Shown one piece after another: positions 6,465 to 64,000 of a stretch of 64,000 bases of DNA. Every line of letters starts with the position of its first letter. Position 1 is the stretch's first letter. The stretch is taken from positions 60,001 to 124,000 of the forward strand of contig NC_087082.1 of the NCBI RefSeq assembly GCF_026151205.1. Direction: 5' to 3'. The notes beneath the pieces were generated by a model. The model was not told where the DNA came from. It did not search any database and saw nothing but the letters and a program-made list of their open reading frames with translations. Made by a program: the position numbers and the translations under genes. This DNA comes from Bolinopsis microptera (lineage: Eukaryota > Ctenophora > Tentaculata > Lobata > Bolinopsidae).

Positions 6465-6980
6465 GGTGATTCATTGCATTAAGTGATTTAAAGATAAAGC
6501 CTAAACTTAAAGCACAATATCTTAACTTATAGTATTGTACTTTTAAACTTACTTATATTGTGATTTTCGTAATTAAATAGACAATGTTACACCTACTGTC
6601 ACAATATAATGTACAATGCGATTTTAGTTGAACTGCCTATTCAAACCAACATTATCAAACGTTTTTGCTTTGGAGAATTAAATCTTGCGATTTTAATTGC
6701 AAAGTGTGCTTACTTAACAGAACAGCATTTCTCTTACTGATCCAGGTCACATGACTCTGTACAATTTGACCTATATCTATATCTATATAGATATATATAG
6801 ATATATAACTCTGCTCATTATTTTTTCTCATTATATTTTCTTGAATAAGGTCCTCGGCTAGACTGTCATTTCTTTCTTGTGTAACCAGAAGTAGTAGTAG
6901 TAGTAGTTATAAACATCTTCGGAATCGGTATCCCTTAGGGCATATATTTGATTATTTCTTCTAGATGTGTCGAACAGTTG
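6465..6980. other. Macrosatellite spacer 1
   Basis: AT-rich non-tandem sequence repeated at 8911-9426 and 10984-11499. It contains a short palindromic TATATCTATAT/ATATAGATATA tract near 6771-6808 and a GTAGTAGTAG run near 6893. No gene recognised. Confidence 0.8.
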
Positions 6981-60011: not shown

Positions 60012-60222
60012 CAAAAGCTAGGTGGAAATAAAACGTCTTTAGGGCATTTTAAAAACATTCTACCGATGATAATGATCTCACTGAGTAGGGTAGTTCATTC
60101 CAAATTTTTGGTCCACAAAACATAAATGCAGCATCTGTTCGTCTGAAATGAGGAGCAGGAGGAACTTTCAACAAATAAAAGTCATCATCTAGTCTATTTA
60201 CCAATATCCTTAAACTCAAATG
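60012..60222 (-). mobile_element. LINE 3' end B
   Basis: A second, different LINE C-terminus on the minus strand: LRILVNRLDDDFYLLKVPPA, FMFCGPKIWNELPYSVRSLS, an in-frame stop, then ALKTFYFHLAFD. Older or unrelated to copy A; abuts it. Confidence 0.8.
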
Positions 60223-60271
60223 AACGTGTCCATATATATTATAATAATACAGTATACACTGTATAATATAG

Positions 60272-60300
60272 ATACAGGGTGTCTCAAGACTCGTGTCTAA
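60272..60300 (+). mobile_element. Mariner-like terminus
   Basis: TACAGGGTGTCTCAAGACTC, the same type of tip as at 15626 and 23064, about 200 bp upstream of the retroelement ORF1. Confidence 0.35.
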
Positions 60301-60372
60301 ATTTGAAATTATAATTTTTCTATTTTATGAATAAGCAATTTAAATGAAATCGGTTTGGGAATGCAAATGCTT

Positions 60373-60416
60373 ATTGCAAAATTGTGTCAAAACCCATTTT
60401 TTCACAATTTTGCAAT
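60373..60416. promoter_or_regulatory. 14-bp inverted repeat upstream of ORF1
   Basis: ATTGCAAAATTGTG and CACAATTTTGCAAT, exact arms separated by 16 bases. It lies just before ORF1 and could form a hairpin in the 5' UTR of the element transcript, or may be coincidental. Confidence 0.45.
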
Positions 60417-60482
60417 CTTTTGAACTCAGGATCCTTAGCTGAACGTCATCATTTTGCTGATAAGAAACTGCTTGATTTTATC

Positions 60483-61001
60483 ATGTCCGGCCATCTTAAC
60501 AAGTCGACCTCTGCTGCTAACAAGACTCCTGCTGCTAAGAAGACTCCTGCTAGGAAGAACAGTATCACTAAACTTGCTGCCTCCGGGTCACCCTCAGACA
60601 CGGAGGCACCCTCCCTCGGTATGTTGGGCTTTGGTGTGCCATCAATTTACACGTTTTGCGCTAAGACGTGTTTAAACGTTTTACCTACCCTCTCCAAAGA
60701 AGATATAGATTTTGAATACAACAGGCTCCGTTTAATTGACTCCACATTTACTGGCAAAGCCACCAAGCCTGACACCAAACAAGCCGCCATCAAACAATAT
60801 CTAACACGTCAAATAGTCGTTGATATAGATCAATCCATGAATAGTCTAACTGCGGCAGCTAACTTACTTTCATGTACTGTTAATGGGGAGTGCGAGAAGG
60901 CGGTGAAACATCTAACAGAACGTGCTCTGACGGCGATCGAAGAAGTCTCTGATGAAACAGACCACCCTCATCACACAGCAGACTGCAACTCTCATCTCTG
61001 A
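60483..61001 (+). CDS. Retroelement ORF1
   Basis: 172 codons from ATG at 60483; the open frame extends upstream to 60384 without another ATG. The N-terminus is basic and histone-tail-like (NKTPAAKKTPARKN), suggesting nucleic-acid binding, followed by a helical region (SKEDIDFEYNRLRLID, IKQYLTRQIVVDID). No CCHC knuckles, PHD or esterase domain is visible, unlike many CR1 ORF1 proteins. Its end overlaps the next frame by 50 bp (60952-61001), compatible with either a natural ORF1/ORF2 overlap or a frameshift. I infer an ORF1 role from position and charge. Confidence 0.6.
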   Translation: MSGHLNKSTSAANKTPAAKKTPARKNSITKLAASGSPSDTEAPSLGMLGFGVPSIYTFCAKTCLNVLPTLSKEDIDFEYNRLRLIDSTFTGKATKPDTKQAAIKQYLTRQIVVDIDQSMNSLTAAANLLSCTVNGECEKAVKHLTERALTAIEEVSDETDHPHHTADCNSHL

Positions 61002-61565
61002 AGCCCCCTCGCAGAACCTCGACACTTCCAGAGAAGTTACAAGTATGCCTCATTCGCCGGTAAGACTTTTAGAGTGCGATCTTTCCGAGTTAACTTTTGA
61101 TAAAGTTTCAAGTGAGCTAAACTTTGACATGCACCACCCTGGAGGCCGTATCACAACTTATTATGGCTCCGTTCCCTACACGTACGGCAGAACCTCACAT
61201 CCTGTCTCTGTTGGGCCACTTCCACCCACTCTGGAACGTGTGTACGAGCAACTGCAAAAAACATAACCCCAGAGAACTACACTTGCCTTTGCACTTTATA
61301 CAAGGACGGATCGGTCGGCATACCGATGCATAATGACAGCGAACCTAGCATAATGGAGGATAGTCAAATTTATACAGTGTCGATTGGAGCACCTAGAAAC
61401 CTTAGGATATCAAGTACAGTAGGCCCCTTTGTCGAGCATAACATTCCACTTGAGCACGGTTCACTTTACGTCATGTCACGAGCAGATCAGGACAACTGGC
61501 GCCACGGCATTGACCGCGATATCTCGGTAAGGTTTCCACGCATTTCACTGACTTTCCGCAAACTG
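60952..61565 (+). pseudogene. AlkB-type 2OG/Fe(II) dioxygenase domain of ORF2
   Basis: Frame 60952-61266 holds an N-terminal stretch and the AlkB substrate-side motif GGRITTYYGSVPYTYG, ending QLQK at an A6 run. The other frame continues NYTCLCTLYKDGSVGIPMHN. The catalytic set follows: HND (H and D at residues 2 and 4 counted from 61326), IYTVSIGAPRNLRI, LEHGSLYVM, NWRHG (H60) and PRISLTFR (R72, R78). H-x-D...H binds iron; the two arginines 12 and 18 residues after the last H contact 2-oxoglutarate, as in animal ALKBH2-type enzymes. The family reaction is oxidative removal of methyl groups from nucleic-acid bases. A single-base break at 61256-61261 interrupts the domain. Confidence 0.85.
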
Positions 61566-64000
61566 AAACAACAAGAGTCATGCACTGTGCCTGCACCTCC
61601 AGCTCTCCATCGGATACCACCTGTTGCCCCTCCAGCTCAGAACTCCTCCTCTCAGCTACACAAACGTGTAGCTGACTCTGATAAAATTGATGTTTTCAAT
61701 CCCAACCCTGAACCCTCAAATACTAGCGGCGAATTTCAATTTATCAAGATCCACCAGTGTAAAGGATATAATAGAACAAAGATAATTGGAAATGTTTATC
61801 GCTCTCCCGCTAGAAAACCTGAAGCATTTCTTGAAATTTTTAAAAGTACGCTTCACAACCTGGGAAGACACTCTCGCAAACATATGACGTTACATGGAGA
61901 TTTTAACCTAAATTTACTGAAGCACAGTAGCAACCAGGCATGTCAAAGCATTATAGATATTGCATCCTCTTACGGTTTCATCCAAATTGTATCACGTCCA
62001 ACTCGCATAACAGACCACAGTGCCACGCTTATTGATCATATCTACACGAACAATCTTGAAGATACAATAAGCTGCAACGTATTAACGACAGATCTGTCGG
62101 ATCACTTAGCGATAGTTACAACAATTAATCTTGATAATACATCCACCAGCAGTTACCGCTCCGCATCTTATAATCAAAATCCAACACAAACCAACGTACG
62201 TAGTTTTAATGAGGCCAACAACCATAAATTTAGAGATTTAATAATGGAAGAAAATTGGTCTGTAATACTAACAAATACCCCTGATGCTAACCAGCAGTTT
62301 GATTGTTTAAATTCGGCTTACAACAGGATTTATAACGCTGCCTACCCGACAAAACGACAGTCCGAGCGCAGACAAAATGAACGTGTTAATCCCAAACCAT
62401 GGATACTGCCCTGGCTTGAAGAAGCTATAGAACGTAAAAATCAGGCATATCATGATTTTGTTAAGGAACCAGTTGATAGGAACCAGCTAAAATACGACCG
62501 TTTGAAAAAGTTTTGCACCAAACACGTTGACAAAGCCAAAAACATACACTACAAAAAATTCTTTGAACAACACAAAGATAATTCTAAGAAGCAGTGGCAG
62601 ATGATTAACGGACTTCTGAATAGGAAACCAGCCAAACCTACATCGATAAAACTGTCGGACGAAAACGGACAAGTCAGCACTCCCGCAGCAGTAGCAGAAA
62701 AATTTAATGATCACTTCTCAAACATCGCTCCAAAAATTAAATCTGAAATTAGTAGTAGGACCACTTTCGATCCTGGTGGGGCCCAGGGGACACTACGTAA
62801 CCCTTCTCCAAATAGTATCTACATAAAACCAGTCACAACTACCGAAGTTCAAGACGTTATTAACCTATTTAAGAACAAAGCTACTCTTGACACCAAAATC
62901 CAACCACTCAAAATTGCCAACAGCTGTCATAATTTTACCACTGTATTGGCCCACGTTGTTAACAGCTCGTTCGAACAAGGGGTCTTTCCCCAAGCCTTGA
63001 AAACGGCAAAAGTAGTTCCTGTACATAAAGGTGGATCTAAAACTGACATCAAAAATTACAGACCGATATCTCTACTTGCCACTTTCTCAAAAGTCTACGA
63101 AAAGCTTATGCACAATCGAGTCATAAATTTCTTGGATACCTACAATATACTTTGTGAAAATCAATACGGCTTCCGCCCAGGTAGGTCTTGTGAACATGCA
63201 CTTCTTAATGCTAAAGACAGAATCCTCAATTCAATGTCTAAAAAGCAAGTTACTCTGCTCCTTTTGATTGACTTTAGCAAAGCCTTTGACCTTGTGGATC
63301 ACTCCATACTCCTGAATAAGCTCGAGCACTATGGCATAAGAGGTCTAGCTTTAAACTGGTTTAAATCATATCTTATGAACAGAAACCAGTTTGTATCAAT
63401 TGGATCCTCTGAATCCTCAGCCAATCCAATTATTTACGGTGTACCCCAAGGTTCAATTTTGGGACCTCTCCTTTTTATAATCTACATAAACGATCTTCCT
63501 CAAATATCAGAAATAGCTAATTTCATCATGTACGCAGATGATGCAAACATTTTCCTAACAGGAGAAAATATAAACGAGGTTTATGATAAGCTCAAAATTC
63601 TTAGCGATGTCTTAGTTAAATGGGTAGATAACAACGGATTAGCTCTAAATCTTAAAAAACGAATTATATGATCTTTTCTCGACAAAGAAACCTCATTTAT
63701 CGCGATGTAGTAATTTCTGGTGTCACAATCGAAAGAAAAACAGAAGCCCGTTTCTTAGGTGTTATAATAGATAACAAACTGAACTGGTCGCAACATATTT
63801 CTGCCATGAAAATGAAAATGGCCAGATACATTGGAGTCATGTACAAACTTAAAAAATATTTGCCTCTGGAAGCACGTTTACAAATATATCACAGCTTTGT
63901 GCAGTCTCACCTTAATTACTGCTCCCTCGTCTGGGGTTTTGCTGCCAAATCCCATATAGAAAGACTATTTGTTAAACAGAAAATGGGTCTTAGAGCAATA
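61566..64000 (+). pseudogene. Retroelement ORF2, endonuclease and reverse transcriptase
   Basis: After a proline-rich linker (residues about 85-115 of the frame starting 61326) comes the C-terminal half of an APE-type endonuclease: IIGNVYRSP, HGDFNLNLL (191-194 GDFN) and LSDHLAIV (258-260 SDH). The N-terminal half, with the catalytic N and E motifs, is missing. The RT follows: KVVPVHKGG, NYRPISLL, QYGFRPGRS, LIDFSKAFDLVDH (D at residue 649), GVPQGSILGPLLF and FIMYADDANIF (YADD 736-739). The frame breaks after LNLKK at the A6 run 63654-63659; the other frame continues TNYMIFSRQRN, FLGVIIDNKLNW and LNYCSLVWG to the window edge. It would make nicked-target cDNA by target-primed reverse transcription. 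Confidence 0.9.

Follow-up and report, generated by a model that had tools for sequence, protein, structure and literature searches.

Background

Long interspersed nuclear elements (LINEs) of the CR1/L2 lineage (Jockey superfamily types III/IV; e.g. ZfL2-1, PDB 4c1b) have two open reading frames (ORFs), where ORF2 carries an endonuclease (EN) and a reverse transcriptase (RT) and ORF1 a PHD-like finger and/or an SGNH esterase; little is understood of the ORF1 proteins, which make up half of the LINE machinery. Accessory nucleic-acid enzymes have been gained by retroelements before: according to the available parts of the respective papers, insect R1 LINEs captured a viral helicase (PMC4686597), and a Ty3/Gypsy element of the orchid Phalaenopsis carries an enzyme of the AlkB family (PMC9289625). 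To this family belong ALKBH2 and ALKBH3, oxidative demethylases that act on N1-methyladenosine (m1A) and 3-methylcytidine (m3C). Helitrons, finally, combine Helitron_like_N with a PIF1 helicase. Here we report on an AlkB domain in a LINE copy of the ctenophore Bolinopsis microptera, located at the end of a stretch of 64,000 nucleotides (the window; contig NC_087082.1 of assembly GCF_026151205.1, positions 60,001 to 124,000, forward strand; positions below are those of the window). We show that AlkB is a regular ORF1 domain of two-ORF, CR1/L2-like LINEs in this genome, that one group of Helitrons has it as well, and that its catalytic residues are kept.

Results

The window copy and its junction

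The preliminary description of this DNA had proposed an AlkB dioxygenase built into a LINE ORF2, directly upstream of and in frame with EN and RT. Profile searches with the window frame 61128-63671 (847 amino acids) detected both domains that it had named, 2OG-FeII_Oxy_2 (PF13532, AlkB; 54.9 bits, cut-off 31.2) and RVT_1 (frame residues 638-844), with HND, NWRHG and PRISLTFR where they had been placed (Table 1); no endonuclease family was matched at E values up to 0.1. The TYYGSVPYTYG block, which had been assigned to the same frame, turned out to be in a different frame from the catalytic part of AlkB, with a small deletion between them. Specifically, the frames are broken by small deletions near 60954 and 61261 and by another near 63654, and the window copy is a dead, internally deleted LINE.

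Searching at the DNA level with window 60350-64000 yielded 41 matches (40 of 364 candidates scored), and the best copies after the window itself begin at 61657. Searching with the ORF1 part only identified 14 other copies with a nearly full ORF1 part and 95-98% identity, two more at 83% and 79%, and also fragments; the window copy belongs to a young LINE family. The ORF2 part is found 1,949-2,017 bases downstream in 10 of the 14 ORF1 copies and 3,960 bases downstream in one, while the remaining three lack it (comparison with 18 of the 41 DNA matches). Two copies that were read through, L033 and L034, have an ORF1 of 607 amino acids, a spacer and an ORF2 of 1163 amino acids; in L033, AlkB scores 64.5 bits with PF13532 and ORF2 matches Exo_endo_phos (E 7e-6). 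In the window, the ORF1 remnant has two small deletions against this close relative, and of 1202 paired bases 1195 are identical. Compared to L033, the window lacks 1,974 bases, which include the esterase-coding end of ORF1, the spacer and the beginning of ORF2; AlkB looks fused to RT because this intervening piece was lost. Moreover, a 27-base pattern across the AlkB-EN junction has a single match in the 264.65 Mb genome when up to two mismatches are allowed. Given this single match and the gap relative to L033, the AlkB-EN junction is therefore private to the window copy, while the presence of AlkB in LINEs is general. AlkB is an ORF1 domain and not an ORF2 component. Thus, the domain does belong to a LINE and is in frame with EN/RT in the window, as had been claimed, but EN is cut at its N-terminus and the fusion to ORF2 is accidental.

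A functional single protein with AlkB, EN and RT is scarcely credible, although AlkB and RT are in frame in the window and P0086, a protein of 905 amino acids from Mnemiopsis leidyi, carries both PF13532 and PF00078. The junction is unique in the genome, in a copy with three frame breaks and a cut EN; the intact relatives that were read have two ORFs (no frame-by-frame search for a multicopy AlkB-EN-RT ORF was made); and P0086, for which no endonuclease family is listed, resembles a gene model that joins two ORFs. The expectation that AlkB and RT would be contiguous in other copies did not hold for this junction; not every AlkB frame was surveyed, and one differently built case was seen. This is L060, where one open frame contains a PHD-like finger, sequence resembling RT, the terminal part of AlkB and a part resembling SGNH; on visual inspection it is a chimera made up of two LINE pieces.

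AlkB in ORF1 of LINEs across the genome

In the genome, 151 AlkB matches were obtained (150 of 587 candidates scored), three of which are host-type genes. Among the fetched loci, AlkB in ORF1 with an RT downstream on the same strand is present in nine LINE groups (A, B, C, D, E, G, H, I and J, J being the family of the window copy); groups B and G have a broken RT frame, and for group F the AlkB stretch alone was fetched. In the copies read (L033, L014, L018, L028 and others), AlkB and EN/RT reside in separate consecutive ORFs. ORF2 consists of a zinc finger, EN and RT, and the usual order in ORF1 is an N-terminal part or PHD-like finger followed by AlkB and an SGNH esterase. The Pfam scores for the PHD and esterase parts are mostly below the curated cut-offs, also where the matches are significant, e.g. 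PHD in L018 (E 5.4e-4) and GDSL_2 in L025 (E 5.3e-7); in the window family GDSL_2 is weak (E 0.01). With a profile built from six ORF1s, the ZfL2-1 esterase is matched (4c1b, E 1.8e-7). The group C ORF1 has AlkB and gave no esterase match.

The same picture emerged when starting from RT. Among the 150 top RT places (from 6,502 candidates), a listed same-strand AlkB is located no more than 8 kb upstream in 29, and no more than 3.2 kb upstream in 24 of these. This is a lower bound since AlkB was also found upstream of RT places for which none had been listed. At five such places we read 2.5-2.6 kb of upstream DNA. An open ORF1 with PHD, AlkB and SGNH is present at L059; L058 retains most of AlkB, with the frames broken, and L060 and L062 a part of it, while no AlkB was seen in the upstream stretch read for L061. 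We refer to the elements as CR1/L2-like on the basis of ORF layout and ORF1 domains, the RT rows having been compared only among themselves (ten rows, this genome). Between LINE groups the RTs are 34-60% identical, H and J reaching 90%, and group C shares 25-29% with the others (ten of 18 RT rows compared, without near-duplicates).

AlkB in Helitrons

Seven AlkB rows of the genome (L005, L015, L019, L035, L038, L041 and L047) resemble one another in the alignment and differ from the LINE rows. L035 has a single open frame with SGNH, AlkB, DUF6570 and Helitron_like_N (PF14214, E 3.8e-22); no helicase was matched in the fetched part, and the frame runs past it. Among public sequences there are six Helitron relatives, four of which (P0032-P0035) combine Helitron_like_N (PF14214), PIF1 (PF05970), AlkB and GDSL_2. 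The four genomic rows used in trees group with P0032-P0036 at a support of 100/99 or better. The assignment to Helitrons is by the full domain set in L035 only, by DUF6570 in L019 and by AlkB similarity in the other genomic rows. AlkB is hence a domain of one Helitron group as well as of LINEs.

The Helitron AlkBs fall within the same clade as those of the LINEs (67 rows, 100/97). The trees nest them among the LINE rows, and because a tree that holds the 58 LINE rows together was not rejected (approximately unbiased (AU) test, p 0.321), no direction of transfer between LINEs and Helitrons is claimed. Nor do we claim a joint move of SGNH and AlkB between the two kinds of element, whose SGNH parts are too diverged for this (best E 4.7e-5, with the domain order reversed).

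Active site and selection

The alignment comprised 70 distinct, near-full AlkB rows after 12 duplicates had been dropped and truncated rows, including that of the window, left out. We count 65 of these as mobile, i.e. as belonging to transposons; 36 come from this genome and 29 are public proteins. HxD, the distal His and both Arg of R-x5-R are present in all 65, and also in the window; the first Tyr of PYxY is likewise found in 65/65 and the Glu following HxD in 64/65.

The ratio of nonsynonymous to synonymous change (dN/dS; Nei-Gojobori) was requested for 21 pairs and computed for 19, with a defined AlkB value for 17, all of which are below 1 (0.04-0.93). For the best-informed pairs, L016/L020 and L020/L021 (dS 0.83-0.88), AlkB has 0.05 and 0.04 compared to 0.19 for the rest of ORF1. 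In 14 of the 16 pairs with both values, AlkB is below the rest of the frame; L023/L037 and L025/L044 show the opposite. The alignments and ratios show that the mobile AlkBs keep their catalytic residues and are under purifying selection.

These data bear on the possibility that AlkB is a non-catalytic nucleic-acid-binding module of the ORF1 protein. AlkB folds do bind single strands, and the ORF1 proteins of other LINEs bind RNA via other modules, but the five cofactor residues are kept in 65/65 rows across deeply diverged groups, and we regard such a role as very improbable.

Relation to ALKBH2 and ALKBH3

Among solved structures, the window family matches human ALKBH3 (63.2 bits, E 1.9e-16) better than ALKBH2 (44.5 bits, E 8.5e-11); for a profile of six other ORF1s the two scores are nearly the same, with ALKBH2 first (72.3 and 70.3 bits). 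In the PDB searches both outscore AlkB and ALKBH8; ALKBH5 and FTO are not among the matches at the cut-offs used. Two trees were computed with ALKBH2 and ALKBH3 as the only references and rooted on ALKBH2, and in both the mobile AlkBs adjoin ALKBH3 (order outward: mobile, ALKBH3, ALKBH2). By these scores and trees the mobile domain appears ALKBH2/3-like and nearer to ALKBH3; the earlier assignment to the ALKBH2 type was close.

The first tree, with 60 rows and 156 columns, places the mobile AlkBs without group C on one side of a branch with a support of 98/95, and with group C of 92/82; adding group C to the 67-row clade of the second tree (74 rows) gives 96/64. Placing group C together with ALKBH3 was not rejected (AU p 0.258), and a common ancestry of the group C AlkB with the remaining mobile AlkBs is favoured by the trees. 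Group C (L016, L020 and L021) consists of deeply diverged LINEs, and its AlkB is on a very long branch. The pairings of A and I and of H and J are found in both the RT and the AlkB trees and suggest a long co-inheritance of the two domains; D and E join in the RT tree (98/99) and not in the AlkB trees.

The host has an ALKBH2 gene of its own (L010) and an ALKBH3 candidate (L011). A further ALKBH3-like open frame with a long branch is at L012:3563-4450. The presence of these genes speaks for a chance junction between a host AlkB gene and a LINE, a scenario that we rejected and consider next to impossible: the mobile AlkBs form a clade of their own, apart from these genes, and occur in many LINE groups and copies, in keeping with the preliminary description, which had taken the two to belong together.

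The VFGKWH..PR stretch, which in ALKBH2 has its role on double-stranded DNA, is present in human and host ALKBH2 and absent from the LINE rows of the alignment. This speaks against the idea that AlkB acts on element DNA, reversing damage or silencing by removing methylation of adenine, alkyl lesions of the cDNA or the 3-methylcytosine (3mC) that DNA methyltransferases produce; in addition, LINE copies are single-stranded DNA only briefly. In support of it, the same domain is found in Helitrons, which move as DNA. Moreover, ALKB2 co-evolves with DNMT1/3 and repairs the 3mC that they cause, according to the part of PMC9246332 that was available. On balance we find an action on element DNA unlikely.

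Relatives in public sequences

A profile search with six ORF1s identified 51 proteins, and all 12 with a named source are hypothetical proteins of M. leidyi; the L033 ORF1 gave 30 proteins (8,000 candidates scored), for which the listed names are a Planctomycetes entry (P0008, below) and one "hypothetical protein". Apart from the Helitron relatives, public rows were counted as LINE ORF1 by likeness and not via their RT. One LINE-type ORF1, P0008, is filed as a protein of a Planctomycetes bacterium metagenome-assembled genome, on a 2-kb contig, and is probably misbinned eukaryotic contamination. Some M. leidyi gene models join AlkB-SGNH to RT (P0086) or to a coiled-coil-like stretch or C2H2 zinc fingers (P0081 and P0087), and these are perhaps gene-model joins or domesticated copies. 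A link to viruses was also sought: 15 stretches matched the pattern in an IMG/VR search with the ORF1 alignment, and none was confirmed.

Features of the window copy

The features are listed in Table 1. According to L009, the element ends with ...CCCCAACAAAAA approximately 0.9 kb beyond the window. Upstream, a reverse-strand frame at 60049-60324 (-) with GPKIWNELPYSVRS resembles, by eye, the end of the ORF2 of another LINE.

Table 1 Features of the LINE copy at the end of the window
Feature	Position	Strand	Basis and remarks
LINE ORF1 remnant (N-terminal region, AlkB, proline-rich linker), 5'-truncated, frame-broken	60454..61655	+	aligns to L033 895-2114
AlkB domain	61156..61559	+	PF13532, E 1.7e-14 for the catalytic part, which begins at 61263
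AlkB N-terminal block TYYGSVPYTYG	61156-61188	+	in another frame than the catalytic part; break near 61261
HND, first two iron ligands (HxD motif)	61329..61337	+	motif position
NWRHG, distal iron-ligand His	61494..61508	+	motif position
PRISLTFR (R-x5-R), 2-oxoglutarate and substrate side	61536..61559	+	motif position
Deletion junction, ORF1 joined in frame to ORF2	61655..61657	+	1,974 bases missing relative to L033; extra base at 61656
ORF2 endonuclease remainder, N-terminal part deleted	61657..62120	+	comparison with L033 ORF2; end set by eye
Endonuclease motif GDFNL	61896-61910	+	comparison with L033 ORF2
Endonuclease motif SDHLAI	62097-62114	+	comparison with L033 ORF2
Reverse transcriptase domain (YADD motif, 63531-63542) with a frame break near 63654	63039..63659	+	RVT_1, E 1.6e-34
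ORF2 C-terminal part, next frame	63656..64000	+	ORF list; L009 up to position 6907

Discussion

We propose that the ORF1 AlkB removes the polymerase-blocking methylations m1A and m3C from single-stranded intermediates of the element, a function to which we give an even chance on the basis of the protein sequences. The ORF1 protein would coat the element RNA, and its AlkB would take Watson-Crick-face methyl groups (m1A and m3C) off the RNA or the single-stranded cDNA, so that RT would not be stopped on the element template; in Helitrons it would be the polymerase copying a single-stranded DNA intermediate that is not stopped. AlkB would then be an onboard repair enzyme for single-stranded intermediates that descended from an ALKBH3-like gene. 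In the published accounts, as far as these were available, ALKBH3 repairs m1A and m3C in RNA and single-stranded DNA (PMC8917145), and the R2 RT of ordered two-template relay (OTTR), a non-LTR (long terminal repeat) RT, is impeded by m1A, with AlkB removing m1A and m3C from RNA (PMC12140624).

A different function would be to erase N6-methyladenosine (m6A) on the element's own or on host RNA and thereby escape epitranscriptomic control by the host, as proposed for the orchid Ty3/Gypsy element, whose AlkB demethylates m6A in vitro (PMC9289625, text available in part). However, the orchid domain is ALKBH5-like whereas the mobile AlkBs here are ALKBH2/3-like, and they keep, in 64/65 rows, the Glu after HxD that ALKBH2 and ALKBH3 have in common. 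Mammalian L1 is moreover helped by m6A, and the eraser ALKBH5 suppresses its retrotransposition (PMC7873242, likewise in part). Helitrons need no RNA template and hence an AlkB in these fits less well with m6A erasure; a single-stranded stage is common to LINEs and Helitrons and therefore fits the removal of polymerase blocks better. We consider m6A erasure rather unlikely.

Returning to block removal by a captured demethylase, several observations weigh against it. LINEs elsewhere manage, to our knowledge, without AlkB. The AlkB of group C may have been captured separately (AU p 0.258). With respect to selection, dS is zero in two of the pairs, one pair has a ratio of 0.93, two are near saturation, pairs share members and some have very few changes. 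Finally, in OTTR the effect of AlkB on the capture of intact tRNA is modest, and larger on 3' halves (PMC12140624, in the part available).

Taken together, we tentatively suggest, at somewhat below even chances, that ctenophore LINEs captured an ALKBH3-like demethylase long ago, that deeply diverged groups of them have retained it as an onboard repair enzyme against polymerase-blocking methyl lesions in single-stranded intermediates, and that the module also passed between LINEs and Helitrons. If this is true, two unrelated kinds of transposon would share one solution to alkylation of a single-stranded stage. An ORF1 demethylase that is under selection and shared with Helitrons raises a testable question, i.e. 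whether retrotransposition is held back by methyl marks or lesions in its template and whether elements carry enzymes that remove these. Such elements may also be a source of co-evolved RTs and demethylases for sequencing of modified RNA.

Among the described systems, the CR1/L2-lineage LINEs share with the elements reported here the two ORFs, EN and RT in ORF2, and the PHD-like finger and SGNH esterase in ORF1, but the latter have AlkB ahead of the esterase. The terms "AlkB" and "oxygenase" do not occur in the searched text of two papers on LINE ORF1 (PMC4120745 and PMC3905857), nor, by the same kind of term search in the available text, in a paper on bdelloid LTR elements that deals with sharing of GDSL and other ORFs between retroelements. 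The R1 LINEs are alike in having gained an accessory nucleic-acid enzyme; theirs is a different enzyme, C-terminal in ORF2, in another clade than the AlkB LINEs (PMC4686597, available part). In Helitrons, our L035 group has Helitron_like_N, and P0032-P0035 also PIF1, as expected; unlike Helitrons generally, the group carries an SGNH hydrolase and AlkB towards the N-terminus, and by title and abstract no paper on a Helitron with AlkB is among the open-licence literature matches listed. Likewise, AlkB in LINEs or Helitrons is not described in the open-licence papers listed; Repbase and most subscription papers were outside reach, and an earlier notice may exist.

ALKBH3 and ALKBH2 are the best solved relatives of the window family and have the same metal and 2-oxoglutarate residues. 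They are host repair genes, whereas the AlkB described here is part of a multidomain transposon protein. As far as the searches show, the nearest precedent is the AlkB of the orchid Ty3/Gypsy element, likewise a retroelement with an AlkB-family enzyme. That element, in the available part of its description, is a plant LTR element in which a separate extra ORF encodes an ALKBH5-type enzyme, while here an ALKBH2/3-type domain resides in the ORF1 of animal LINEs and in a Helitron protein. The mobile AlkBs of B. microptera would thus, within the same searches, be the second, independent case of a transposon AlkB after orchid Gypsy, and the first for animals, LINEs and DNA transposons alike.

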